Source: Polyangium sp. 15x6
Lineage (GTDB): Bacteria; Myxococcota_A; Polyangia; Polyangiales; Polyangiaceae
Direction of reading: 5' to 3'
Assembly (NCBI RefSeq): GCF_029960785.1
Contig: NZ_JASBQE010000064.1
Span: 1 to 64,000 of the forward strand
DNA: 64,000 nt
Part shown: piece by piece, positions 7,091-42,584 of the stretch
Layout: each line of letters begins with the position of its first letter
Position numbering within the stretch: position 1 is the first letter of the stretch
Program-made: the position numbers and the translations under genes
Notes under the pieces: generated by a model
What the model saw: the letters and a program-made list of their open reading frames with translations, nothing else
Told to the model about the DNA's origin: nothing
The model's database searches: none

Positions 7091-8970
7091 AGGGTCCTCA
7101 GGAAGGCGAGCAGGGCGGCGCGGTCTTCGGTGGTGAGGTGGCTCGTCTGGCCCATGCGATCGAGGTTGTCGTCGAGCAGGGCCTCGAGCGTCGGGTAACG
7201 GCCGTCGTGGAAGTAAGGCGCGGAGCCCTCGAGCATGGCGAGCGGCGGCGTGCGGAACGCAGCGCGGGACTCGTCCTTCGCGCGCGAGCCGACGTCGTGC
7301 ACGACGCGATCACTCGTCCCCTTTTCGAGCCCGTGGCAGCCGTTGCAGCCGAGCTTTTCCGACGTGTAGAGGTCACGCCCGCGCGTGACGAGCGCCTCCT
7401 CGCCGGGATCCTTCGTCTCGCGGCGCGGCACGAAGAGCCCCTCGCGGAGGTACTTCGCCAGCGCGGCGAGTTCCTCGGCCGGCAAGCCCGATCCGCCGAG
7501 GCGGGTGAGCGTCTCGGCGATGTTGTCCTCGAGCTTCGCGTGCATGCCGTGCCAGCCGTAAGGCCCACGCTCGACGCGGCCCGCGAGCGCCATGGTTTGT
7601 CGCGGGCCGTCGCCGAGCCGCCACACGATGCCGTCCTCGCGCCCCTCGGGGTGACAGCTCGCGCAGGCGCGGCCGTCACGCGAGATGCGGCGATCGCCCT
7701 CGGCGTGGAAGAGGCTCCGGCCGAGCGCGAGGTCTTCGCGGAGCGGGTCCGTCGAGACGGGAAGCGTGTCCACGGCGCCCGACGCGAGGCTCACGACGGA
7801 GAGGTCGTGCGAGCGCTGGTTCCAGACGACCGCGATCGCCGTGCGAGGATCGACGTCGACGCCGGAAGGGCCCTCGCCCACGTGGAAGGCGCGCCGCGGG
7901 GCGAGCGCCGGATCGAGCGAGCGCGCGTCGAGCTCGACGAGCTCGCCCGTGCCATGCGAGACGACGAACAGCGCGTCGCCGAGCACCGCCGCGGCGCGGG
8001 CTTGCCGTGCGGGAGAGCCTGCCGGCGCGACGGCGCTCGCCGAGAAGGCGTTCGCCGCGATGTTGACGAAGTTCTTCTGCGCGGCGCCGCCGTCCGCGCC
8101 GAGCGTGCGCTCGCGCGCCACGTCGAGGACCGCGACGGTCGGGACCGAAGTGTCCTCCTCGATCGAGACGCCGCCATAACCGCCCGCGACGACACGCGTC
8201 GTGCTCTCGCCGTTCTGCGCGACGAGGTGCGGGACGAAGAGGCGCGTGCCGCTCTCGTTCAGCACGGCGACATACGCGAGCGACGAGGTCGGGTGCAGCG
8301 TGTTCGCTCCGACCATCGTGTCGACGCGGTTTCGGTAGCTGCCGCCGAGCGCGCGCACGGCGCGAACGACGGGCGCTTCGCCCGCATCGCCGCCGTCGAG
8401 ATCCACGACGGAGAGAGCATCCCCGGCGGCATGCGTGACGAACGCGCGGCGGCCGTCGGGCGTGACGGTGATGCCCCGAGGCTCGCGCGGCAGGCGCAAG
8501 GAGAAGCGGGTCGCGAGGGACTCGGCGTCGAGCGCGGTGAGGGCGCGGCCGTACGCAGAGGTGACGAGCAGCGCGCCGCGCGGGCCGACGGCGAGGCTCC
8601 AGGGTTCGGCGGGGACGACCGCGCGCGCGGCGACGGTCCCCTCGCCCGCCGCGTCGACATCGAGGACACGCACCTCGTTGCATCCACGCAGGCTCACGGC
8701 GACGCGATCCTCGGCGAGGACGAGGACCTCGGCAGGCGCGCAGCCGAGCGGGGTCGTCGCGACCGAACCACTCACGAGATCGACGCGGTGGAGCGCCTCG
8801 TTGTCGGCGTCGGCGACATACGCGACGAGGGCGTCGCGATCGAGGGCGACGGCGCCGCTGCGCGCGGGTGCGGCGGCGGCAGCGGCGGGCGCGGCGAGCA
8901 AGGTGGCGAAGAGGCCGAACGAGGCCAAGGTGCGGCGAGGCGGGCGCATGGGGTGGGCTCGTAGACGCAC
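7087..8970 (-). CDS. Beta-propeller protein fused to a MauG-like di-heme cytochrome domain
   Basis: A 627-residue exported protein. After a signal peptide comes a propeller region (about 30-420) with YVTN-like units such as PRGITVTPDGRRAFVTH and PSGVDVDPRTAIAVV. A C-terminal cytochrome part (about 425-627) has two heme sites, CASCH near 436 and CNGCH near 542, and a FRTPPLAMLEGSAPYFHDGRY segment typical of MauG/CcpA C-termini. The likely role is electron transfer or peroxide-dependent oxidation in the periplasm, with the propeller binding a partner. ATG at 8970 is the longest start. An ATG 21 nt downstream (MRPPRR) gives an equally good signal peptide. It is first in a four-gene operon and divergent from the NuiA-like gene. 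Confidence 0.75.
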   Translation of the reverse strand: MRLRAHPMRPPRRTLASFGLFATLLAAPAAAAAAPARSGAVALDRDALVAYVADADNEALHRVDLVSGSVATTPLGCAPAEVLVLAEDRVAVSLRGCNEVRVLDVDAAGEGTVAARAVVPAEPWSLAVGPRGALLVTSAYGRALTALDAESLATRFSLRLPREPRGITVTPDGRRAFVTHAAGDALSVVDLDGGDAGEAPVVRAVRALGGSYRNRVDTMVGANTLHPTSSLAYVAVLNESGTRLFVPHLVAQNGESTTRVVAGGYGGVSIEEDTSVPTVAVLDVARERTLGADGGAAQKNFVNIAANAFSASAVAPAGSPARQARAAAVLGDALFVVSHGTGELVELDARSLDPALAPRRAFHVGEGPSGVDVDPRTAIAVVWNQRSHDLSVVSLASGAVDTLPVSTDPLREDLALGRSLFHAEGDRRISRDGRACASCHPEGREDGIVWRLGDGPRQTMALAGRVERGPYGWHGMHAKLEDNIAETLTRLGGSGLPAEELAALAKYLREGLFVPRRETKDPGEEALVTRGRDLYTSEKLGCNGCHGLEKGTSDRVVHDVGSRAKDESRAAFRTPPLAMLEGSAPYFHDGRYPTLEALLDDNLDRMGQTSHLTTEDRAALLAFLRTL

Positions 8971-9065
8971 AGCCCGTCCGAAAGATTTGTGGACGCGCGC
9001 GGGAGGTCGCCTTGACGCGGTCGACCTCGCGTGCCTCGAATGCGCCCGACACGGAGGAGCGAGGG

Positions 9066-9449
9066 ATGCTGAGCCAGGAAGTCGAACCGCTGATGCAGGC
9101 TATCGGGGAGGCCGCGGCCGGCCTCCTGTTCCCGAGCGAATCGGACTTCCCGATCGAGGCCTACCGCTTCGGCGAGGAGGAGCCCTCCCCGGCGGCGGTG
9201 CTACGGGCGCAAGGCTTGTCCCCGGACACGCAGGTCGAGGAGGTGGCCGTGGCCTCGTTCTTCGAAGGTCTCGTCGAGGGCGACGACGACGGGTCGGCCC
9301 GCTTCCGGTCCCTCGTCGACCTGCTCCAGCGCGAGCTCGCGGACCTGCGCGTCTACCGGGTGGGAAAGGTCGACATCGACGCCTTCGTCCTCGGCCGGCA
9401 CCCGTCGGGCGTATGGCTCGGGGTGACCACGAAGCTGGTCGAGACCTAG
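9066..9449 (+). CDS. NuiA-type nuclease inhibitor
   Basis: A 127-residue acidic soluble protein. The stretch AGLLFPSESDFPIEAYRF closely resembles the core of nuclease A inhibitor (NuiA) proteins, and the length is near the usual 130 residues. NuiA binds and blocks DNA/RNA non-specific nucleases of the NucA/EndoG family. The convergent neighbour encodes exactly such a nuclease, and the two genes share four bases (CTAG) at their stop codons. The start is supported by GGAGG at 9053-9057 and GAGGG directly before ATG. A cytoplasmic immunity role against the neighbouring nuclease is inferred from family and context. Confidence 0.82.
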   Translation: MLSQEVEPLMQAIGEAAAGLLFPSESDFPIEAYRFGEEEPSPAAVLRAQGLSPDTQVEEVAVASFFEGLVEGDDDGSARFRSLVDLLQRELADLRVYRVGKVDIDAFVLGRHPSGVWLGVTTKLVET

Positions 9450-10420
9450 TCCCCCTTCTTCGCCTCGATCTCCGCCTGGACGTCCTCGTCCACGGCCGTG
9501 AGGAAGTCGTAGCCCGTCCGCTGCTCGATCTCGTCCACGGTCGTCCGGTACTTCTCCCAGCCCTCGTCCTGGATGCCCTCCTTGTTCGGCATGAGGACCG
9601 CGATCACCGGCGTCGACTCCGTCACGTCCGCTGGCCCCTCGCGCGGATCGAGCACCACGACGATCTTGAAGAACGTGTCGGGCACCGCGACGCCCTTGCC
9701 GATCGTCTTCGTGGGCTTCTTGCCCCGCTTGAGTACGCCGCCCGCCATGACGAAGAGCTGTTTGCCCTGCTTTCTGCCGAGGTCCTCGCAGTGCTCCTCG
9801 AGCCGCAGCCAAGGCCCCGCGTTGAGGTCGTGGTACTGCGGCAGGATGTTCGTCATCAGGAAGGTGACCTTGTTGTCCTCGGGCGAGCGGGTCCGCTCCT
9901 CCGAGCGCACCATGTGGCCCCGGTCGTAGCCCGACCCCGTGTAGTCGTCGTGCGTGACCCGGTAGAAGCCCGACGGTAGCTCCGGATCCGTCAGGAACTT
10001 CCCTTTGTGCCGAGGCGCATCGCCGAACCAGCTCGCGTCGATCTGCCAGCTCACCCAGTTCGCGACATTCTGGTCCGCGTTGTAAGACAGCGCGTACTGG
10101 GCCTTGCGCATCAGGTGGTCGTCCGAGGGATCGTCGTCCGTCGGCACGCCGAGCGCGAGGTGGACGCTCGCGTCGGCAGGCTTGCCGCCGGCCCCGCGCG
10201 CCGGGCTCCCCTTCGGGCCAGGCGCCGTGGGGGCGCCGGTGCCCGTGGTCGTGGGGCGCGGGCGGCTCTTGCCCTGGTCCGTCCCCGGGGTCAGGTCGTC
10301 GAGCCATCGGTCAGCCCTGCACGCATGCAAGAGCGCCCCGGCCCCGCCGACGAGGGCCACGACGAACAAGCCAAGGGCCCCTCCCGTCTTGCGTCGCTTT
10401 CTGGATGCAGTCCGGCTCAC
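9446..10420 (-). CDS. DNA/RNA non-specific endonuclease (NucA/EndoG family), membrane-anchored or exported
   Basis: A 324-residue protein with a basic N-terminus, a hydrophobic helix at about 14-34 and a Pro/Gly-rich linker to residue 80. The nuclease domain follows. The catalytic signature DRGH is at 166-169 (His169 as general base). Asn191 in TNILPQ, with the downstream Asn200 and Glu209, fits the magnesium-binding helix of this family. Such enzymes cut single- and double-stranded DNA and RNA, often outside the cytoplasm. The hydrophobic segment suggests export or anchoring in the inner membrane facing the periplasm. The gene converges on the NuiA-like inhibitor gene and is divergent from the phosphoribosyltransferase-like gene. 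Confidence 0.85.
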   Translation of the reverse strand: MSRTASRKRRKTGGALGLFVVALVGGAGALLHACRADRWLDDLTPGTDQGKSRPRPTTTGTGAPTAPGPKGSPARGAGGKPADASVHLALGVPTDDDPSDDHLMRKAQYALSYNADQNVANWVSWQIDASWFGDAPRHKGKFLTDPELPSGFYRVTHDDYTGSGYDRGHMVRSEERTRSPEDNKVTFLMTNILPQYHDLNAGPWLRLEEHCEDLGRKQGKQLFVMAGGVLKRGKKPTKTIGKGVAVPDTFFKIVVVLDPREGPADVTESTPVIAVLMPNKEGIQDEGWEKYRTTVDEIEQRTGYDFLTAVDEDVQAEIEAKKGD

Positions 10421-33468: not shown

Positions 33469-34299
33469 ATGGTTCGTCGGCTCGCGGCTGCGATGACCTT
33501 GATCCTCTCGTTTTCACCGGCAGTCGCCTGGGCGGCCGGCAGTGAGCTCGCCGAGCTCGCGGAGCGCACGAAGCCTTCGGTCGTGCTTCTCACGGTGGAA
33601 GACGCGACGGGCCACGAGGTCGGGACCGGGACGGGCTTTTTCGTTTCGCCGGACGGACGGATCGTCACGAACCACCACGTCGTGGACGGCGCCGCGAAGG
33701 TGACGGCGACGCTCGCCGACGGCTCGAAGCTCGCGGTCCTCGGGCGCCTCGGCGACGACGAGGACCGTGACATCGCCATTCTGAAGGCGGACGGGGCGGG
33801 GCTATCGGCGCTCTCGCTCGGGGATTCGAGCGGCGTCGCGCCGGGCGACGAGGTCGTGGTCATTGGCAGCCCCCTGGGGCTCTCGGGGACGCTCACGGTG
33901 GGGATCGTCTCGGCGAAGCGTGAGCGTGGCGTGGGCAAGGAAATCGACCGCGCCTCGGAGCTCGAATCGTGGGGCCTCCAGATCACGGCCGCCATTTCTC
34001 CGGGCTCGAGCGGCTCCCCCATCATGACGAGGCGCGGCGAGGTCGTCGCCGTCGCGGTCGGTACGCTCAATCAATCGCAGAGCTTGAACTTCGGCATCCC
34101 GATCGAGGTGGTGAAGGGAATGCTCGAAAAGCTCGGCCCGGCGGCGCCCGTGATCCCGTTCGAGAGCAATCCGGAGCAGAACGTGCTCCGCAACTTGTTG
34201 ATATCGGCGGCCGTGATCGGGGGGCTCGTCGTCGTGGTCGCCATGTGGAGCTTCGTGACCACGCGCGGATCACGTCCGAGAGCGCGCCAGGGGAATTAG
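33469..34299 (+). CDS. HtrA/DegP-like serine protease with C-terminal membrane helix, no PDZ domain
   Basis: A 276-residue protein with a signal peptide (to AWAAG) and a trypsin-fold S1C protease domain. The triad fits His70 (VTNHHVVD), Asp101 (RDIAIL) and Ser181 (PGSSGSP). GSSGSP replaces the usual GNSGGP, but the catalytic Ser is present. Instead of PDZ domains it ends with one hydrophobic helix (about 240-262) and a short basic tail. It is probably anchored in the inner membrane with the protease in the periplasm. It follows the hybrid kinase gene on the same strand and precedes a Ser/Thr kinase gene. Confidence 0.8.
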   Translation: MVRRLAAAMTLILSFSPAVAWAAGSELAELAERTKPSVVLLTVEDATGHEVGTGTGFFVSPDGRIVTNHHVVDGAAKVTATLADGSKLAVLGRLGDDEDRDIAILKADGAGLSALSLGDSSGVAPGDEVVVIGSPLGLSGTLTVGIVSAKRERGVGKEIDRASELESWGLQITAAISPGSSGSPIMTRRGEVVAVAVGTLNQSQSLNFGIPIEVVKGMLEKLGPAAPVIPFESNPEQNVLRNLLISAAVIGGLVVVVAMWSFVTTRGSRPRARQGN

Positions 34300-34389
34300 A
34301 CCCGGACGAATCCGATCAAAACGGGAGCCCGCTCGGCTTTTCCGTGTTGTTGCTCACTACCAGTGGTAACATCGCGCGCCGGGGGGGTC

Positions 34390-36072
34390 ATGAAAGCCGG
34401 AGACTGCATCGGGGGAGACTATCGCCTCGTCCGTCCACTCGGCGAGGGGGCGATGGGGTCGGTATGGGAGGCCCAGAACGAGCGCACCGGGCGTCGCGTC
34501 GCCATCAAGCTCATTCTGCGGCCGAGCGCGGACCTCCGCCTTCGCCTCAGCCGCGAGGCGCGCGCATTCAAAAGTTTGTCCCATCCGAACATCGTCGACG
34601 TCTACGACGCCGGCGAAACGTCCGCGGGGGACCCATTTCTCGTGATGCAGCTCCTCTCGGGGGAGACGCTCGCGGATCTTCTCGAGCGAGAGCGCAGGCT
34701 CCCGTCGAAGCAGGCCGCGAGGATCGGCCGAGACGTCGCGCTCGCCCTCGCGGCAGCGCACGAGGCCCGCATCATTCACCGCGATCTGAAGCCGGAGAAC
34801 GTATTTCTCCACCGGGAATCGAGCGCCGACGGCTTCGTCGTGAAGGTGCTCGATTTCGGCGTGGCCAAGCAGCTCGATACCAAGGACTGCGTCCGCACGG
34901 TCACGGGCGTGATGGTAGGCACGCCGGGGTACATGAGCCCCGAGCAGGTGCTTTGCGTCGAGGATCTCGATTTCCGCACGGATGTGTGGTCGCTGGGCGT
35001 CGTCCTGTACGAAATGCTCACGGGCGTACGGCCCTTCAAGGGCAACGTGGACGTCCTCTTCCAGCAGATCCTGACGGCCGAGATCCCGCCGGTCGCGAGC
35101 CGCGTCCGCCACGTCGATCCGCGGCTCGCCGACCTCGTCGATCGCTGCCTGCAGCGCGACCGGGCCAAACGTATTCAGTCCGCCGCGGCGGTCGCGGCGC
35201 TGCTCGCGCCGCTCGCGGGCCCGCGCGAGGCCGTGCCCCTCCTGGATCCGGCGCTCGAGGTCCCCATTCCGTCGACGCTCCCGCGCCCGGACGTCTTGCC
35301 GCAGACCCAGAAATTCACGCTCGCCATCGACGGCACGACGCCCGAGGAGGCCGAGGCGCCGACGCAGGTCGGGGAAGTCGCCTTGAATGGCACGGTCATC
35401 CTTCCACCCGGGGCGAGTACGAAGACCGACGGGGACAAGGAAAGGCCCGCCCCCCCGGCATTCGATGGCCCGCGGGCGCCGTGGCGGGATGCGTCCCTGA
35501 GCGCCATTCTCACCGCGACCACGACGCAGGTCTCCGCCACGGCCGAGAATCGCACCGCGCCGAGCACCACGGTGACCGTGGGAGCCATCACGGTGTCGGC
35601 CGGGACCGAGCCTTCGGACGGTGCATCGCAGAGGCAACGGCGAAAGCGTCAGGTGATGCGCCGGGGCGTGCTCTTGCTCCTGCTCTTGGCCGCGCCGGTC
35701 TTGATTTTCATCGTGGCGTCAGGGACAACCACGACGAAGCCCGCGGACAGCGCCGCCCCGGGCGAGACGATCGCGCTCCCCTCGCCGCCTCCTCCGCTCG
35801 CGCCGGACGACGTGGCGCGGACCGCGCCGGCGCCCGTATCCCTGCCGGAAGCCGACCCCGCGCCGCCTTCGTCCACGGACGCAGGGGCCACGAAGAGCGC
35901 CTCTGGCCCGGACAAACGTAGCGCATTGCCCGCCCGCGGCGGGAGCAAGCCGCCGGTCGATCCGCCATCGTCGCGCGCCGCCACGCCGAAGGCGAAATCC
36001 CCCGCCCCGAGCGCGAAGGCGCCCGCGGGCGCGAAGCCGTGCCCTCGATTCTTCCCGAATTGCAAGCGCTGA
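34390..36072 (+). CDS. Membrane Ser/Thr protein kinase (PknB-type)
   Basis: A 560-residue Hanks-type kinase. It has the glycine loop GEGAMGSV (18-25), Lys40 in VAIK, HRDLKPEN at 130-137, DFG at 155-157 and GTPGYMSPEQ as the APE region. After the kinase domain (about 10-280) comes a low-complexity cytoplasmic linker. A single membrane helix follows (about 422-442, RRGVLLLLLLAAPVLIFIVA), then a Pro/Ala/Ser-rich outer tail ending in CPRFFPNCKR. The tail has no PASTA repeats. ATG at 34390 follows a GGGGGG run; an upstream GTG at 34363 is less likely. The next two genes encode a TPR-like and a Gly-rich secreted protein, possibly functional partners. Confidence 0.88.
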   Translation: MKAGDCIGGDYRLVRPLGEGAMGSVWEAQNERTGRRVAIKLILRPSADLRLRLSREARAFKSLSHPNIVDVYDAGETSAGDPFLVMQLLSGETLADLLERERRLPSKQAARIGRDVALALAAAHEARIIHRDLKPENVFLHRESSADGFVVKVLDFGVAKQLDTKDCVRTVTGVMVGTPGYMSPEQVLCVEDLDFRTDVWSLGVVLYEMLTGVRPFKGNVDVLFQQILTAEIPPVASRVRHVDPRLADLVDRCLQRDRAKRIQSAAAVAALLAPLAGPREAVPLLDPALEVPIPSTLPRPDVLPQTQKFTLAIDGTTPEEAEAPTQVGEVALNGTVILPPGASTKTDGDKERPAPPAFDGPRAPWRDASLSAILTATTTQVSATAENRTAPSTTVTVGAITVSAGTEPSDGASQRQRRKRQVMRRGVLLLLLLAAPVLIFIVASGTTTTKPADSAAPGETIALPSPPPPLAPDDVARTAPAPVSLPEADPAPPSSTDAGATKSASGPDKRSALPARGGSKPPVDPPSSRAATPKAKSPAPSAKAPAGAKPCPRFFPNCKR

Positions 36073-36130
36073 GCGGGCGAGTTCTCCGCATAGGCGCTCG
36101 ATTCATCGTCAATTCGTGTTATCCTGCCGC

Positions 36131-37183
36131 ATGGGTGGGAGCATCGAAAGGACCCTACGAGCGCAGTATCTCTTCCCGCTCGTCCTGGGGCTCGCCGTGC
36201 AGAGCGCCGCGTTTCCCGCGGCGGCGGATCCCCCGCCGTCTTCGGAGGCCTCGTCCTCCCCCGCCGATGTGGCCCGGGCGCATTACGTGCGCGGCAAGGA
36301 CGCGGCGAGGGCGAAGCAATGGCAGGCCGCCCTCGACGAGCTGAGATCCGCCTGGCGCATCATGCAGCATTTCCAGATCGCCGGGACGCTCGGATGGGTC
36401 GAGCTCGAGCTCGGCCACCACCGCGACGCCGCGGAGCACCTCTCGTATTTCTTGCGGCACGCCGAGGACGTGGCAGCCGACGAGATGAAGGCCACCTCCG
36501 AAATGCTGTCCGAGGCGCGCGCCAAGGTCACGGAGCTGTCCGTGCAGTCGAACGTGACGGGCGTCCATTTGATCGTCGACGGCGAGGAAATGCGGTGGCC
36601 CGAGGCGAACGCAGGCGTGTTCGTCGAGCCCGGGAGGCGGACGCTCGAGGCGCGGCTCGGCGAGCGTTCGTCGGGGCCGGTCGTGATCGAGGCCAAACCC
36701 GGGGAATCGCAGCTCTTGCGGCTGGATCTTCCGAAGAAGGAAGCGCCGCGCGGGGTACTCGCGCAAAAGGAAAACGCGGACGCGAAGGCGCCGGGCCCGA
36801 TGCGTTCGATGCGCAAGCCGCTGCTCGTCGCGGGCGGCGTGACCGCGGGGGTCGGGATCCTGGGCGGTGTCGTGTTCACGGCCCTTTCCAAGGGGCGCGC
36901 CGGCGAGGCGGCTGCCATGGCGCAGTCCCTTTCCGGCGAGAAGGACGATTACTGCACGTCGAATCCCGGCGCGGGCGCGTGCCCCGATCTCGTTCGCCTG
37001 AAGAACGAGCAAAATCAGTTCGGCGAGGCCGCGCTGTGGAGCTTCGTCGGAGGAGGCGTCATCGCCGTCGGGACGCTCGTGTACGGCCTCTCGGCGCCGA
37101 AGCGTGGCGCGACGGGCTCGGTGTACGCGCTCCCCGCGGTGTCCTCGCAGGGGGGCTCGCTCGTGGTTCTTGGGACCTTTTGA
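36131..37183 (+). CDS. Secreted TPR/PEGA-like protein with two membrane segments
   Basis: A 350-residue protein with a signal peptide. A TPR-like helical part (VARAHYVRGKDAARAKQWQAALDELRSAW, residues about 45-110) is followed by a PEGA-like beta domain (TGVHLIVDGEEMRWPEANAGVFVEPGRRTLEARLG). Two hydrophobic segments lie near the C-terminus (about 235-255 and 298-318). This architecture is common in myxobacteria next to Ser/Thr kinase genes, as here (58 bp after the kinase stop). The function is not established. The start is uncertain: ATG at 36131 or GTG at 36116, neither with a clear ribosome-binding site. Confidence 0.65.
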   Translation: MGGSIERTLRAQYLFPLVLGLAVQSAAFPAAADPPPSSEASSSPADVARAHYVRGKDAARAKQWQAALDELRSAWRIMQHFQIAGTLGWVELELGHHRDAAEHLSYFLRHAEDVAADEMKATSEMLSEARAKVTELSVQSNVTGVHLIVDGEEMRWPEANAGVFVEPGRRTLEARLGERSSGPVVIEAKPGESQLLRLDLPKKEAPRGVLAQKENADAKAPGPMRSMRKPLLVAGGVTAGVGILGGVVFTALSKGRAGEAAAMAQSLSGEKDDYCTSNPGAGACPDLVRLKNEQNQFGEAALWSFVGGGVIAVGTLVYGLSAPKRGATGSVYALPAVSSQGGSLVVLGTF

Positions 37184-37228
37184 GGAAAAACGAAGATGAG
37201 TGTGGAGAATGGGGGAGGTTCGAGGCCC

Positions 37229-38734
37229 ATGCGCCGTCATTCTTTGACGTCCACGCTGGCGATGCTCGCCTGCGCCGCGGGCGCCCTTGCGCTCGGTGGC
37301 TGCGGGCTCGACGTGTTCGCCGATTGCAGCGTCACGAAGACTTGCGCCGGCCAGGCGAGCTCGCAGGCGGTATGCCCCCTCGACGGGGATCCGAGCCGGC
37401 CTGCGGCGTGCGGGCTGTACGTGGCGGCCTCGGGCGACGACACGAACCCGGGGACGGCCGAGCGCCCGCTGCGGACGCTGCGCGCGGCCGTGGACAAGGT
37501 GCAAAAGCAAGGGGCGCGGCCCATTTACGCGTGCGCCGAGACGTTCATCGAGCCGCTCGCGCTCCGCGGCGGCGAGGTGCTCCACGGCGGATACAACTGC
37601 ACGGGCGGCTCGCCGTGGACCACGCAGGTCGGCATGACGACGCTGTCCGCGAGCGCAAACGAGGTGCCCTTGCGCGTCGGCGCGGCAGGACCGACGGTCG
37701 TGACGAATTTCAAGGTCGTCGCGGCGGACGCGGTCCAGCATGGCGCCTCGTCCATTGCGGTGATCGCCGATCGGGCCGAGCTCGAGCTCGTCCGGTGTCA
37801 CCTGGAGGCCGGCAAAGGCGCGGACGGGCTCGCCCCGCCGCCCGAGGCGAGCGGCGCGACCGCCGGATTGCCCGGGAAAATGGGGTTTGCCGCGTGCACG
37901 TATACCACGGTGCAGGAGGTCTCCTCGACGTGCGGAACGGTCGAATCGATCGGCGGATCGGGGGGGTTCGGCACGTCGCCCTGGGGAAAGGCCGGTCGCA
38001 ATAGCTCGTTCGGCAAGGACGTGAGCGGCGGCCAGGGCGGGGAGCCCGAGGAATTCACGGGGACCGAATGCACACCGGGCGGGCCCGGCGTCGCCGGGAG
38101 CGTGGGCGCGCACGGCGCCCACGGCGTGGAGCCCGGGACAATCTCGGCGAATGGGTACGAGGGCGCGTCCGGGACGAGCGGCGGCGAAGGGACCGTGGGA
38201 TTGGCCGGCGGCGGCGGCGGCGCGGCACTGGGCGGGTCGGGCGCGAACAAATGCCCCGCGGGGAGCACGACGAGCCACGGGGCCAGCGGCGGCAGCGGCG
38301 GGACGGGCGGATGCGGCGGGAAAGGCGGCGCAGGCGGAGGCGCGGGCGGCGGGAGCTTCGGCCTCCTGAGCATCGACGCGAGGATCTCGTCCGAGTCCGT
38401 CACGATCGTCACGGCGGGCGGCGGAAAAGGCGGCGACGGGGCCGTGGGCCAGGCGGGCGGGAAAGGCGGCACGGGTGGGTTCGGCGGCCCGCCGCCCATG
38501 ATTTCTCCGCTGAAACCCGGGTGCGCCGGCGGCAATGGGGGCAAGGGTGGCGACGGCGGCCAGGGCGGCGGCGGTCGTGGTGGGCATTCGATCGGCATTG
38601 CCTATGTGGGGAATGCGCCGGCGGCCACGGGCGTCTCGTTCGAGATCGGGCTCGAGGGTCCGGGCGGCCAGGGCGGCGATCCCCAGGATCCGGCGCCCGC
38701 GGGCCTCCGCCGGGACATGCAATCGTTCGATTGA
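37229..38734 (+). CDS. Gly-rich (PGRS-like) beta-helix lipoprotein
   Basis: A 501-residue lipoprotein (ALGGCG lipobox). GLYVAASGDDTNPGTAERPL is a DUF1565-type start of a right-handed beta-helix, a fold often seen in surface or polysaccharide-binding proteins. From about residue 230 the chain is dominated by GG-rich repeats (GGGGGAALGGSG, GGAGGGAGGGSFG), similar to PGRS regions. ATG at 37229 is preferred because GGGGGAGG is 10 nt upstream. ATG at 37196 (MSVENG) is also possible. It is the last gene of the plus-strand run from 33469 and ends at a strong terminator. Confidence 0.7.
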   Translation: MRRHSLTSTLAMLACAAGALALGGCGLDVFADCSVTKTCAGQASSQAVCPLDGDPSRPAACGLYVAASGDDTNPGTAERPLRTLRAAVDKVQKQGARPIYACAETFIEPLALRGGEVLHGGYNCTGGSPWTTQVGMTTLSASANEVPLRVGAAGPTVVTNFKVVAADAVQHGASSIAVIADRAELELVRCHLEAGKGADGLAPPPEASGATAGLPGKMGFAACTYTTVQEVSSTCGTVESIGGSGGFGTSPWGKAGRNSSFGKDVSGGQGGEPEEFTGTECTPGGPGVAGSVGAHGAHGVEPGTISANGYEGASGTSGGEGTVGLAGGGGGAALGGSGANKCPAGSTTSHGASGGSGGTGGCGGKGGAGGGAGGGSFGLLSIDARISSESVTIVTAGGGKGGDGAVGQAGGKGGTGGFGGPPPMISPLKPGCAGGNGGKGGDGGQGGGGRGGHSIGIAYVGNAPAATGVSFEIGLEGPGGQGGDPQDPAPAGLRRDMQSFD

Positions 38735-38802: not shown

Positions 38803-40167
38803 TCAGAACCTCGGCGGGCCCCCGACGACGGGCGGCGGCTTGCGAGACGCTTTCGGCGACCGCGTCTTCGCTTGCTTGTTCGAGGAGGCGCCGTCCTGCT
38901 CCGCGACGCTCGCGCTGGCCTTTTCCTGCACCGGAGGCTTTTCGGAAGGCGGGCTCGGCAGAGGCAATACGTCGGGCTTCGCCACGCTCGAGGGCGCGAC
39001 CTCGGCGCCGGGAGTGAGGAGCGGCGACGGCGATCCCGGTGCGGATCCGGCGCCCGGGTTCGCCCCGCGCAAAAGGTACATGCCGAAGCAACCCATGGCC
39101 ACGATCGCGCCGAGCCCGGCCCAGGGCCATCGCTTCGTGGACGCTGGCGACGGCGTTTCGGCGGAGGGACCGGCCGACTCCGCCCGCGCGGGCTCCTCCC
39201 CGACGAGCAGGCTCGTGGCGGGCCCGCGATATTGATCTCGCCAGCCGCGCCCGCGCTCGGGGCCTTCGTCGCCACGCACGGGCGTCGCGCCGAAGAGCTC
39301 CCGCGCGAGCTCGTCCTCGTCGTGTGGCACGCGTTCGAGTGGAAACACCGGCGTGCCCGCCGGCTGCGGGCCGACCTCGCTCGCAGGCAAGAATCGGATC
39401 GTGACGCCATTCGGCAGATCGGATTCCCGCCCGTTCGAGAGGGCCGTCCATTTGATGTTCGAACGATAAAGGACGGCCGCGATTCGCGCCGCGCACGCCG
39501 CGATTACCTCGAACGGCGTGTCGTCGTCGTGCACGATCACGATACGCCCCGGCAGCTTGACCTCCTCGGCCACCGCCCAGCGGAGCGAGCGTGTCCCAGG
39601 CCCCGCCGAAGGCAGCCCCTCGAAGCTGGCCTTGTACGCTTGCAAGAGGGGCAACGCCGCGGCCGGATCCTCGCCGCATCGAGCATAGGTGTGATACCAG
39701 CCATGGCCCTCGGCCGTCGTCGCCGTACGCTCGAGGAGCCGCGCCCGGAATTCGAGCGCGGCGCGACACACGAAGGCCGCGTCGAGATCACGCTCGATGG
39801 CCACGATCGCGTGCGAGAATGGCGGGTCTTGACGGCCGGCGTGGTCGCGGGCGCCGCGGATGCGTAGCCCGAAGATGAGCGCCACGCCGCCGCGCCCCGG
39901 CTCGTGTTGCGTATCGTCGCGGGAGAGGTTCCCGATGGCGAACGCGCAATCGCTCGTCGTCCGCGGCTCGATGTACTTGAGCAGCCGCGAAAGATGGCCG
40001 AAATGCTGCCGGGACAAGGGGCCCTGGGGCACCTCGGGGTGATGGATGAAATCGATCTGGTGCCCCGGAACGTTCCCGTGCAGGAAGTGGTACCAGGCCA
40101 CGTCGGCGGGCGCCTTGTACGTCGGCGCCACGTAGCCTCCCCTTCGGCCTTCACCGCGCGCGCTCAT
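38803..40167 (-). CDS. Unknown membrane protein partnered with a GTPase
   Basis: A 454-residue protein. The N-terminal 290 residues form a soluble domain of unknown family: WYHFLHGNVPGHQIDF near 25, a SDCAFAIGNLSRDD stretch near 72, HGWYHTYARCGEDPAAAL near 155 and RIVIVHDDDTPFEV near 208. A disordered linker leads to one membrane helix (about 348-368, WPWAGLGAIVAMGCFGMYLL) and a Pro/Ser/Lys-rich tail. The topology suggests a large cytoplasmic domain and an outer tail. Its ATG directly follows the TGA of the GTPase gene with no gap, so the two are translationally coupled and very probably form one system. Confidence 0.6.
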   Translation of the reverse strand: MSARGEGRRGGYVAPTYKAPADVAWYHFLHGNVPGHQIDFIHHPEVPQGPLSRQHFGHLSRLLKYIEPRTTSDCAFAIGNLSRDDTQHEPGRGGVALIFGLRIRGARDHAGRQDPPFSHAIVAIERDLDAAFVCRAALEFRARLLERTATTAEGHGWYHTYARCGEDPAAALPLLQAYKASFEGLPSAGPGTRSLRWAVAEEVKLPGRIVIVHDDDTPFEVIAACAARIAAVLYRSNIKWTALSNGRESDLPNGVTIRFLPASEVGPQPAGTPVFPLERVPHDEDELARELFGATPVRGDEGPERGRGWRDQYRGPATSLLVGEEPARAESAGPSAETPSPASTKRWPWAGLGAIVAMGCFGMYLLRGANPGAGSAPGSPSPLLTPGAEVAPSSVAKPDVLPLPSPPSEKPPVQEKASASVAEQDGASSNKQAKTRSPKASRKPPPVVGGPPRF

Positions 40168-41166
40168 TCAGTTCACCCGCGAAAGCTTGGGTGGCTCGGA
40201 GGACCCGTTCACCGCGGGCAGCGGGACCGTCTTCTCCGATTTCTCCACCTTCGACGTGTCCGACAGGTCCTTCACCATGCGCTGCAAGAGCTGCGAATCG
40301 TAGGCTTGTTTCGGGAGGATCCGCTCCACGAAATGCGAGAATAGGAGGTGGGTCGAGTGCCCGTAGTTCGCGGAGCCGACGAAGACGCGGATGTCGAGCT
40401 GCATCGAGTACTTCGTGAGGTTCTCGATGAGCGGGGCGTAAAGCTTCTTCGCTTGCTCCTCCACCTCGAGCGGCGTGCCCGAGAGCAGATCGCTCTTGTT
40501 GATGAAGAGCACCACGGTCTTGCACGATGCCACGGTCTTCGGGCCGAAGAAGAACTTGAGCGCCTGCGGCTGGAACTCCTGGAGCTGCTCCTGGATACGC
40601 CCGGGATCGACCTTTTTGGCGTCCTTGCCGCCGAGATCGACGACGATGAGTAGACCGTGAATCTCGTCCCCGATGAGCTCCTGCTGCGCGTCGACGATGT
40701 GCTCGCCGCCCCAGTCGCCGACCTCGAAGACGTGCTCGATGACCACGTCCTTCTGGAGCACGTGGCTCACGGTCCGCTCGTAACGGTCGATCTTGGTGCC
40801 GGCGAGGACGCCGAGGTCGATGAGCGGATTCGCCCATTTGAGGGTGAGCGAGGTTTTTCCCGTGGCCTTCACGCCGAGCGTGAGGATCTTGTATGTCTTG
40901 CGCGTGATTTTCGGCCGCTTCTCGAGCTCCGCCCGGAGCCAGAGGATTTCCTGCTCCTGATGATCGAGCCAGCCGACCTTTTTCTTGTCCTCTTCCACCG
41001 CGACGTGGAGCTTCGTCACGAGCGCCTTGTTTTCGTTCTCCAGGCCATCGACGCGCTTCCGAGCACTGATTTCGGCCTGGGTCGACCGCCGATATCGCGT
41101 CGCCGTGAACACGAGCCCTGCCAGGGCGCACGCGAGCAAGATGCACGAGGCGATGAGCATCGACAT
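40168..41166 (-). CDS. Membrane-anchored coiled-coil GTPase
   Basis: A 332-residue protein. An N-terminal membrane helix (MSMLIASCILLACALAGLVF) leads to a coiled coil (about 30-88) and a P-loop GTPase domain. All G motifs are visible: G1 GVKATGKTS at 98-106, G3 DWGG at 151-154, G4 NKSD at 223-226 and G5 SANYG at 265-269. It resembles GTPase-domain proteins of bacterial multi-gene systems more than translation factors or Era/Obg types; closer assignment needs a search. GGGGGA lies 6 nt before ATG 41166. It is directly followed by the unknown membrane partner gene. Confidence 0.75.
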   Translation of the reverse strand: MSMLIASCILLACALAGLVFTATRYRRSTQAEISARKRVDGLENENKALVTKLHVAVEEDKKKVGWLDHQEQEILWLRAELEKRPKITRKTYKILTLGVKATGKTSLTLKWANPLIDLGVLAGTKIDRYERTVSHVLQKDVVIEHVFEVGDWGGEHIVDAQQELIGDEIHGLLIVVDLGGKDAKKVDPGRIQEQLQEFQPQALKFFFGPKTVASCKTVVLFINKSDLLSGTPLEVEEQAKKLYAPLIENLTKYSMQLDIRVFVGSANYGHSTHLLFSHFVERILPKQAYDSQLLQRMVKDLSDTSKVEKSEKTVPLPAVNGSSEPPKLSRVN

Positions 41167-41587
41167 GAAAGTCCCCCGGGAATCCCCCGAATCGTCGAGG
41201 ACGGGACGGCGTGCGCTCCGCGCAAGCCCGTCCGGCTCGTCCGTCGGCGAGCTCCAGTGTAGCCCAGAATTGAATCGCGGAACACAGGCTTTTGGTGGTT
41301 GTCAGGAGTCTGTCATGATCGGAATGGGTTGCCTTGTCGCGCCACGTATGGCAGAGTCGCGCCGTGGCATTCATCCGGCTGCGCTGAGCTCGGCATCCTC
41401 GTTCTCCTTGTGTCCCTGGCAAGGCCAGGTCGATGCAGCGAGCGCGTGGGTGCTTTTCCGTGCCCGCTTCCCCCCCGGGGAAGACCGGGCGCGGTGGCTC
41501 ACGCCGGCAGCCTGGCAGCCACGGTGAATACGTCACACTCGTGCTGCCGGTCGTGAGGCGACGCGCTCCCGCGTCTTCCCCTTCCGT
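41167..41587. other. Long intergenic region between divergent GTPase and macrolide phosphotransferase genes
   Basis: About 420 bp without a supported gene. No consensus promoter stands out. The only weak palindrome I note is GTGGCT/AGCCAC around 41500-41525. It should hold the promoters of both divergent genes. The last part before 41622 is pyrimidine-rich. Confidence 0.4.
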
Positions 41588-41635
41588 ATGCGCCTCCGGG
41601 CGCGCGAAGAGGAGTTTTTCCATGACCGAACGTAG
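41588..41635 (+). promoter_or_regulatory. Possible leader mini-ORF overlapping the macrolide phosphotransferase start
   Basis: A 15-codon ORF, MRLRAREEEFFHDRT, spans the ribosome-binding site and start codon of the downstream gene. MRLR is a known macrolide-dependent ribosome-arrest sequence of ErmD-type leaders. No Shine-Dalgarno sequence precedes this ATG, and Arg is common in chance frames of such GC-rich DNA, so translation of the mini-ORF is uncertain. Confidence 0.25.
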
Positions 41636-42584
41636 TGCTCTCTCGTCCGCGGCTTCTTCGTCCTTCGAGCCGCTCGATTCCGCCCCCGCGCTCCTCGCGG
41701 CCGCTCGCCGCGCGGGGCTCCGGATCACGACCGAAATGGCCGATTTCGATCAAAGTGGGCTCGACTTCCTCGTGGTGCACGCCCACGACGAGGAAGGCGT
41801 GCCGTGGGTCGTGCGGACGCCGCGGCGCATGGCCGTGGTGGAGTCCGCGCGCGTCGAGGCGCGGGTGCTCGAGCTCGTGCGCGGGCGCCTACCCGTCGCG
41901 GTGCCGCACTGGCGCGTGTTCACCGAGCAGGTGATCGCCTACCCGCGCCTCGACGGCGTCCCCGCCGTCACCATAGATCCGGCGGCCGGCGTCGTCTGGA
42001 ATCGTGTCGATCCGGCGGCCCCCTCGAACACGCTCATTCATTCGTTCGCCGACGCGCTCGCGGCGTTACAAAAGGTGAGCACCCGGGCGATCGAGGAGGC
42101 AGGCGTTCCGAAAAAATCCATCGACGATACCCGCGCAGAGCTCGCTCGTGCCATGGACGATACACGCGGCGTACTCGCGCCGTCGGACGTGGTCTGGGCG
42201 CGCTGGCAACGCTGGCTCGCGAATGACGCGATCTGGCCGCGTCACGTCGCCCTGGTGCACGGCGATCTCCATCCGGGTCACATGCTGCTCGACGAGGAGG
42301 GCCGCTTGACGGGGATCCTCGATTGGACCGAGGCCCACCTCGGGGATCCCTCGATCGATTTCGCGCTGTTCGTCGGCGCGTTCGGCAAGGCCGCGCTCGA
42401 CGCTTGTCTCGCGCGCTTCGAGGCGGCCGGCGGCACGACGTGGAGCGGCCTTGCGGCCCACGCTGCCGAGCGCTGGGCGGCGGCTCCGGCGCTCGGGGCG
42501 AAGTGGGGGCTCACCACAGGCAACGATGGCGTGATCGAGTTCTCCCGGACGATGCTCGCGACGATCGAAAAAGAAAGCGGGTGA
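41622..42584 (+). CDS. Macrolide 2'-phosphotransferase-like kinase (Mph family)
   Basis: A 320-residue aminoglycoside-phosphotransferase-fold protein. It resembles Mph(A)/Mph(B) over its length. Shared features are a GLDFLVVHA strand pair near 45, PWVVRTPRRMAVVE, EARVLELVRGRLPVAVPHWRVF, IAYPRLDG, the catalytic loop HGDLHPGHML and the metal-binding ILDWTEAHLGDPSIDFA. Mph enzymes use GTP to phosphorylate the 2'-hydroxyl of the macrolide desosamine and so inactivate the drug. The start at 41622 has GGAG at 41611-41614, 7 nt upstream. No mobile element or other resistance gene is near, so it looks like a resident chromosomal gene. The actual substrate is unproven. Confidence 0.8.
   Translation: MTERSALSSAASSSFEPLDSAPALLAAARRAGLRITTEMADFDQSGLDFLVVHAHDEEGVPWVVRTPRRMAVVESARVEARVLELVRGRLPVAVPHWRVFTEQVIAYPRLDGVPAVTIDPAAGVVWNRVDPAAPSNTLIHSFADALAALQKVSTRAIEEAGVPKKSIDDTRAELARAMDDTRGVLAPSDVVWARWQRWLANDAIWPRHVALVHGDLHPGHMLLDEEGRLTGILDWTEAHLGDPSIDFALFVGAFGKAALDACLARFEAAGGTTWSGLAAHAAERWAAAPALGAKWGLTTGNDGVIEFSRTMLATIEKESG

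Follow-up and report, generated by a model that had tools for sequence, protein, structure and literature searches.

A conserved, directly adjoining gene pair of Polyangiaceae encodes a GTPase and a partner with a predicted longin-like fold

Results

A conserved two-gene unit in Polyangiaceae

We analyzed a 64,000-nucleotide (nt) stretch of DNA from Polyangium sp. 15x6 (positions 1 to 64,000 of contig NZ_JASBQE010000064.1; hereafter, the window), whose genome comprises 13.4 Mb in 275 contigs. On its minus strand, a GTPase gene (41166..40168, 332 residues, stop codon TGA at 40170–40168) is followed by a gene for a 454-residue protein that we call the partner (40167..38803, ATG at 40167–40165). 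Zero bases separate the TGA from the ATG, as a first-pass annotation made from the letters alone had reported, and both frames are present in the list of open reading frames (ORFs). The two genes are as follows.

40168–41166, minus strand: predicted membrane-anchored Ras-superfamily (Rag/Arf-like) GTPase, 332 residues (ORF, Pfam Gtr1_RagA, AlphaFold2 (AF2) model and fold matches, 20-member alignment)
38803–40167, minus strand: partner, 454 residues, with a predicted longin-like domain, a small α/β domain, a linker, one membrane helix and a Pro-rich tail (ORF, AF2 model of residues 1–330, 22-member alignment)

Ten of 97 related genomes carry the partner (22 genes), and the same ten carry the GTPase (20 genes). 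In each of the 20 GTPase loci, which were retrieved by a search with the GTPase itself, the next gene downstream on the same strand encodes the partner; conversely, the GTPase gene immediately precedes 20 of the 22 partner genes. Searching named genomes with the partner brought up 17 loci, distributed over Polyangium, Sorangium, Minicystis and Byssovorax, and in 16 of these a GTPase gene adjoins; the closest named copies of the partner N-terminal domain are those of Polyangium sp. y55x31 (95% identity), P. fumosum (92%) and Polyangium sp. 6x1 (90%). With ten of these 17 loci dropped as duplicates and three distant loci added, there are 32 distinct partner loci, of which 27 are paired, the GTPase gene coming first in all 27. 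Because the partner was the sole route to seven of these 27 GTPases, the independent figure for the GTPase is 20 of 20, which argues that the link between the genes is not due to chance. Spacing between the two genes ranges from −11 to +12 nt in 26 of the 27 pairs; the remaining value, −77 at L079, results from use of the first start codon. The evolutionary distances of GTPase and partner correlate (r = 0.965, with 0 of 2,000 permutations as high), partly owing to shared species and paralogue history. The pair is itself paralogous, with two copies in the genome of the window and four in one congener. Across samples of the phylum, a partner-like domain occurs in 7 of 377 genomes (E ≤ 0.01) and the GTPase in 5 of 377 (E ≤ 1e-8; 11 matches, all at pairs already known). 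The pair is a real, conserved GTPase–regulator unit of Polyangiaceae, and its two proteins very likely act together. The first-pass annotation had taken the tight coupling and matching topology as a sign of one complex; these counts uphold the coupling and point to a shared evolutionary unit, homologues being generally neighbors.

Five partners are unpaired: L058 (Minicystis; 8431–10059 of its locus), L063 (7932–10547) and three distant proteins outside the family, L094 (7926–9083; 21% identity), L095 (7907–9424; 23% identity) and L186. No homologue of the pair's GTPase was found in the 20 kb around L058 and L063, the 19 kb around L095, the 9 kb around L094 (where the contig ends) or the 3 kb around L186. 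The distant unpaired partners retain N80-L81-S82 and H119, without R112.

A Rag/Arf-like GTPase with a predicted membrane anchor

The GTPase combines a predicted membrane helix and stalk with a G domain.

41104–41160, minus strand: predicted N-terminal membrane helix, residues 3–21 (hydropathy; model helix 2–83)
40918–41103, minus strand: predicted stalk helix, possible coiled coil, residues 22–83 (AF2 model helix 2–83)
40849–40875, minus strand: G1/P-loop GVKATGKTS, residues 98–106 (20-member alignment)
40699–40716, minus strand: G3 DWGGEH, residues 151–156, with Glu at the position of Ras Gln61 (27 paired GTPases)
40489–40500, minus strand: G4 NKSD, residues 223–226 (20-member alignment)
40369–40377, minus strand: G5 GSA, residues 264–266 (20-member alignment)

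The G1–G5 motifs claimed for this protein are all present, and the key residues of all five are invariant in the alignment of 20 homologues. G3 reads DWGGEH in 26 and DWGGEY in one of the 27 paired GTPases, Glu replacing Ras Gln61. The switch I stretch is GTKIDRYER (residues 123–131); R128 and R131, around switch I, are invariant in the 20-member alignment, and G-T-K-x-[DE]-R-Y-x-R is found in all 27 paired GTPases. A hydropathy peak at residues 3–21 agrees with the N-terminal membrane helix of the first-pass annotation. The coiled coil that it also described survives solely as one continuous predicted helix, residues 2–83 with the membrane span included. By block, the mean predicted local distance difference test score (pLDDT) of this helix is 83–90 at residues 21–80 and 67 at residues 81–90. 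The AF2 model is mediocre overall (pLDDT 68, predicted template modeling score (pTM) 0.52), yet its predicted G-domain fold is clear.

Pfam Gtr1_RagA (PF04670) matches the window GTPase at 23.4 bits, against a cut-off of 22, as a partial match (residues 135–301), with weaker matches to Roc, EF-Tu and Arf; across the 20 members at E ≤ 1, Roc matches 20 and Gtr1_RagA 19. Foldseek retrieved 729 chains for the model at E ≤ 0.001, MglA among them at 3.8e-7. In VIA-align, where rows within 1 Z unit are tied, the model matches a tubulin-cofactor complex chain (Z 13.0), chains of Gtr/Rag entries (12.8–12.1), Loki RagA (12.1) and MglA (11.9). The likeness to Rag/Gtr GTPases lies in the Gtr1_RagA score just over its cut-off and in the structural Z scores of 12.1–12.8. 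Rag/Gtr GTPases bear a C-terminal roadblock-like dimerization domain after the G domain. No such domain appears in the AF2 model of the GTPase studied here, in which ~42 residues follow the G domain, with residues 300–332 at pLDDT < 50; instead of a confident domain at this end, it has the predicted N-terminal membrane helix and stalk.

The partner has a predicted longin-like domain

39607–40104, minus strand: predicted longin-like domain, residues 22–187, order β1-β2-α1-β3-β4-β5-α2-α3 (DSSP of the model, VIA-align rows)
39283–39555, minus strand: predicted second, small α/β domain, residues 205–295 (model: strand 208–213, helix 219–234, strands 240–244, 255–261 and 274–276, helix 284–292)
39073–39129, minus strand: predicted membrane helix, residues 347–365, with KR before it (hydropathy in orthologues; charge rule by eye)

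For the window copy of the partner, neither Pfam nor NCBIfam gave a family at E ≤ 10, and the 22 members match no meaningful family, with two stray weak matches in one member each. The N-terminal domain that had been annotated as unrecognized is so by these searches, and no known unrelated family claimed the protein. Sequence searches returned no solved relative, with one chance-level chain per search.

The AF2 model of residues 1–330 (pLDDT 80, pTM 0.81) has elements, by DSSP, at residues 26–31, 40–44, 53–65, 74–80, 94–102, 116–124, 130–148 and 157–163/168–180. The canonical longin order is β1-β2-α1-β3-β4-β5-α2-α3, with which the element order of the model agrees, and the roadblock order is α1-β1-β2-α2-β3-β4-β5-α3, which DSSP does not find in the model, since this begins β1-β2-α1 and ends α2-α3. 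When the top Foldseek chains were aligned with VIA-align (999 aligned, 24 at Z ≥ 5, 0 at Z ≥ 8), the best row was the Lst4 longin (Z 7.7, 3.2 Å, 130 residues). Next came chains of C9orf72–SMCR8 (7.4, 3.6 Å, 147 residues; further entries 6.7 and 6.5), an FLCN complex (7.3, 3.7 Å, 140 residues; further entries 7.0 and 6.4), GATOR1 (7t3b_B, 7.3, 3.2 Å, 132 residues; GATOR1 and SEA-complex entries span 6.5–7.3) and the Loki longin (7.1, 3.6 Å, 132 residues). A TagF chain (9t0n, Z 6.9) is the sole other protein in the first 16 rows, and lower rows hold VAMP7, Ykt6-complex, DENND and TRAPP chains. Roadblock/MglB chains are absent from this list, an absence that does not exclude them. The rows cover mainly residues 15–249, the small α/β domain lying at 205–295. 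The partner is probably longin-like.

In having such a predicted domain beside a Rag/Arf-like GTPase, the pair resembles the longin–DENN GTPase-activating protein (GAP) complexes (GATOR1/NPRL2, FLCN–FNIP2 and C9orf72–SMCR8), as it does in an invariant Arg in a loop that we read as the corresponding one. It differs from them in being bacterial, in having one longin-like domain per chain, no recognized DENN domain and its own membrane helix, and in showing no detected sequence similarity between these proteins and the partner.

Beyond residue ~310 the partner consists of a variable linker, one predicted membrane helix and a low-complexity tail. The membrane helix annotated here is weak, falling below threshold (Kyte–Doolittle 1.6) in the window copy, and exceeds it in 19 of the 22 family members. 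With KR preceding the helix, the N-terminal domain is expected to lie in the cytoplasm, and the matching topology that had been noted for GTPase and partner is supported at the level of prediction. The tail is otherwise variable, and 12 of the 22 partners end in Phe (GGPPRF, GKPRF, GKPCF, GKPEF or RLF; the window C terminus lies at 38803–38850). A periplasmic protease might recognize this end as a PDZ-type ligand; a trypsin-type protease gene lies at 33469–34299 of the window.

A candidate arginine finger

Two arginines of the partner are candidates for a role in catalysis.

39832–39834, minus strand: codon of R112 (DHAGR), predicted loop between β4 and β5, candidate arginine finger (Arg in 27/27 paired partners)
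39919–39921, minus strand: codon of R83 (NLSRDD), predicted loop between β3 and β4, second candidate (Arg in 27/27 paired partners)

Longin-type GAPs carry a conserved Arg in the loop that leads into the final strand of the longin sheet, a place taken by R112 in the modeled partner. Arginine fingers described for longin GAPs are SMCR8 Arg147, seen with ARF1, NPRL2 Arg78 and, in an analogous loop, FLCN Arg164 (PMC8213707, PMC7464330); the structures solved for Rag complexes place these arginines far away from the nucleotide (PMC7464330). In its PDB sequence, NPRL2 R78 sits between the hydrophobic stretches LIGCPVCIE and NALLFNLGFVC, which we read as β4 and β5, so that R78 would fall in the β4–β5 loop; the corresponding partner loop (residues 103–115) contains DHAGR with R112. 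At position 112, the five unpaired partners have R, A, E, Q and E, a loss in four of five (Fisher P = 1.4e-4 against the paired partners, uncorrected for the relatedness of the sequences); in another alignment, L094 shows a gap there. At position 83, they have R, R, Q, L and Q. In L063, R112 is the sole invariant Arg lost.

The reading that we favor, at slightly under an even chance, is a GTPase switch linked to the envelope and governed by a longin-type regulator that is probably a GAP. The two tightly spaced genes would form one unit, a membrane-held switch with its own regulator. The N-terminal helix would hold the GTPase at the membrane and leave its stalk helix and G domain in the cytoplasm, where the longin-like N-terminal domain of the partner would dock on the GTPase; one membrane helix would join this partner domain to a disordered, probably periplasmic tail. 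The conserved pairing, the G motifs, the constancy of R112 and the enrichment of neighbors are observed and the fold and topology are predicted; binding, the direction of regulation as a GAP and sensing at the envelope are what we infer. That the partner acts as a GAP through R112 is a more specific guess, which we regard as plausible and rather less likely than its failing.

Several observations weigh against this reading. Foldseek found no PDB match to the partner model at E ≤ 0.001, and hmmsearch with the partner alignment found no longin chain at E ≤ 10, a search that misses very distant relatives. All VIA-align Z scores of the partner are below 8, a range in which matches may mean merely a common arrangement, and the longin likeness is therefore support and not proof. 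LOV/PAS-type chains are mixed into the list at Z 5.4 and below, and, except for Lst4 and the Loki longin, its rows name complexes and not subunits; the matched chains would be the longin subunits of these complexes. The β4–β5 placement of NPRL2 R78 is a reading of its sequence rather than of a structure. The unpaired L058 retains R112. Of 48 columns invariant among paired partners, L058 loses 3, L063 10 and the three distant proteins 23, 29 and 23; R112 is thus one of several columns lost, and its absence lacks specificity. The GTPase could also, by analogy with MglA, supply the finger in cis from R128 or R131.

This last point leads to the strongest rival, somewhat unlikely in our judgment, in which the partner would serve as a scaffold of the MglB kind, an effector platform or an exchange factor: its longin-like domain would bind the GTPase, hydrolysis would rely on the GTPase's own R128 or R131, and R112 would be structural or bind something else. 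In MglA–MglB, the catalytic Arg comes from MglA (PMC8336837), and the invariance of R128 and R131, together with the place of MglA among the best structural matches of the GTPase, fits such an arrangement. Both systems join a bacterial Ras-superfamily GTPase to a small α/β regulator of the roadblock/longin fold class. The GTPase described here differs from MglA in its predicted membrane helix, stalk helix and DWGGEH motif, and the partner from MglB in its modeled longin rather than permuted roadblock order, its predicted membrane anchor and its position downstream of the GTPase. Taken alone, an MglB-like role leaves unexplained why R112 is kept in all paired partners and lost in four of five unpaired ones.

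Comparison with DO-GTPase/GAP1, TagF and defense systems

The first-pass annotation had suggested comparison with GAP1-type domains, which belong to the DO-GTPase/GAP1 systems (PF19975, PF19993, PF20012 and PF20013) described in 2020, in a paper from which the term longin is absent (PMC7159879). A divergent system of this kind, reduced to GTPase and GAP1-N, would account for several likenesses: the same order of a GTPase gene and then a large GAP1 gene, membrane segments in both proteins and a conserved Glu in the DO-GTPase Walker B motif (PMC7159879), here in the G3 region. By eye, GAP1-N1 resembles the partner in a G-x-x-x-G-H motif that follows β1 and in a conserved Arg ahead of its final T/S-H strand. 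In hhalign, the GTPase scores a probability of 23% (E 9e-4) against DO-GTPase2 and 6.5% against DO-GTPase1, as compared with 98.6% between those two families. Profile comparisons gave no support for a likeness of the partner to GAP1. Its hhalign probability against a 17-member GAP1-N1 profile (14 regions taken from 8 plasmid, 22 and 29 match rows, plus three others) is 0.2–0.3%, and GAP1-N1 and partner hidden Markov models (HMMs), searched both ways over 8,419 ORFs, gave no cross-match among the best 50 matches. Neither the window proteins nor the 22 partner members have a Pfam GAP1 match, GAP1-N2 being compared via Pfam alone. PF19975 and PF19993 are neither among the five families found for the window GTPase at E ≤ 10 nor among the best 25 of 43 families for the 20 GTPase members, and no GASH or FNIII match occurs in the five window neighbors scanned. 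We therefore rejected GAP1-type membership at the profile level, though the motifs are alike by eye; the pair is not detectably DO-GTPase/GAP1 or MglAB, and we consider a divergent DO-GTPase/GAP1 system improbable.

Two GAP1 loci came to light alongside these comparisons. At L116:1–3300 (G212:C68), a GAP1-N2 protein lies beside a GTPase-like protein in which a zinc ribbon at the N terminus and membrane helices at the C terminus can be made out by eye; this GTPase-like protein matches no Pfam family at E ≤ 0.01 and is therefore apparently missed by the DO-GTPase models. A GAP1-N2 protein searched against plasmids gave no match. The protein at L112:2804–5596 (G077:C157) joins GAP1-N1 to a CHAT domain, and a DO-GTPase2/DO-GTPase1 pair lies upstream of it.

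About as improbable as a GAP1 relationship, or slightly more so, is the idea that the partner N-terminal domain is a TagF-like, two-domain bacterial longin-type fold for protein docking and not GTPase regulation: chain 9t0n of TagF, the post-translational repressor of the type VI secretion system (PF09867), aligns weakly over the whole domain (model residues 22–302, Z 6.9, 4.9 Å, 219 residues), has by eye an Arg-rich loop at a similar place and uses conserved residues, including a loop with Asp, Arg and Pro, in its interaction with Fha (PMC5995506), but hhalign gives 0.2%, none of the 22 partner members matches TagF_N, and the gene context is another one: a GTPase gene adjoins the partner in 27 of 32 loci, and the TagF gene of this genome is found on a different contig. 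We rejected membership of that family at the profile level despite the span of the fold alignment. Inspected by eye, the GAP1-N1, GAP1-N2 and TagF sequences have in common a turn rich in Gly and His that follows the first strand and an Arg that precedes the last one, a resemblance that may serve as a lead and is not a test.

A defense-type role, also raised in the first-pass annotation, found no backing in PADLOC, in which neither GTPase nor partner matches a family at E ≤ 0.01; the 35 PADLOC families matched by the neighboring kinase were read as generic kinase matches.

Gene neighborhood of the pair

34363–36072, plus strand: Ser/Thr protein kinase, recurring neighbor (Pfam Pkinase)
36116–37183, plus strand: TPR/PEGA-type protein, recurring neighbor (no Pfam match of its own; homologues match PEGA/TPR)
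37196–38734, plus strand: Gly-rich lipoprotein-like protein without a Pfam match (neighbor scan)
41433–42584, plus strand: APH-type phosphotransferase gene, diverging from the GTPase gene (neighbor scan, scanned from 41535)

The five window neighbors scanned were the trypsin-type protease, the APH phosphotransferase, the kinase and two proteins without a Pfam match, an outcome on which we rejected them as a key to function. The Gly-rich protein adjoins the pair in six Polyangium orthologous loci, and two other groups each contain one protein that clusters with it.

When neighbors were clustered across loci, the TPR/PEGA-type protein and Ser/Thr kinases recurred. The former is present in 22 of 29 pair or partner loci versus 6 of 40 control regions, and a kinase motif in 23 of 29 versus 14 of 40; the controls were 40 random 20-kb regions of three genomes, and one of these regions (L148) overlaps the edge of pair region L052 by ~2 kb. 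Counted by paralogous group, a group being positive if any of its loci is, the figures are 9 of 12 for TPR/PEGA (P = 2e-4) and 11 of 12 for the kinase (P = 6e-4); averaged within groups, they are ~8.4 and ~10.3 of 12. Eight of the 29 loci span less than 13 kb, a bias against the pair loci, and the any-locus rule and the TPR/PEGA HMM, built from the neighbors themselves, bias in their favor; kinases were counted by sequence motif. Duplication of whole loci would likewise hold neighbors together. Counting itself, the TPR/PEGA protein of the window finds 17 matches across its own genome, for which 150 of 167 candidates were scored. Within the Sorangium-type group, four of seven loci have a TPR/PEGA gene whose start codon begins at the final base of the partner stop codon (TGATG), and in two more it begins after 2 nt; in the seventh, L060, a kinase-like frame follows. 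At L061, the gene after the partner encodes a kinase and has the same orientation.

Discussion

Published work regards the roadblock/longin families as having arisen in archaea and describes roadblock proteins as sporadic among bacteria (PMC10933270), and longin domains have been derived from prokaryotic MglB-like GAPs of MglA-like GTPases (PMC3521125, 2012). Among the best-ranked titles and abstract openings, in a search whose coverage left subscription journals mostly outside, we found no published description of this GTPase–partner pair. It would be a bold and unlikely extension of our data that Polyangiaceae hold, at the membrane, a bacterial equivalent of the Rag/Arf GTPase of eukaryotes together with its longin arginine-finger GAP, a pairing so far attributed to archaea and eukaryotes, with GAP1-N and TagF as further branches of one bacterial longin-type fold and the longin platform with its invariant Arg loop as a general bacterial module for GTPase control or docking, older than eukaryotes.

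The predicted shape of the partner resembles regulators of nutrient-sensing switches in animal and yeast cells, and because the pair is a two-gene unit whose N-terminal partner domain is separable from the membrane helix, the idea of a longin-type GAP is directly testable. If it is true, bacteria use longin-type arginine-finger GAPs, and the regulator logic of mTORC1-type nutrient sensing gains a bacterial relative or analogue. The signaling networks of Polyangium and Sorangium would then gain a new switch tied to Ser/Thr kinases.

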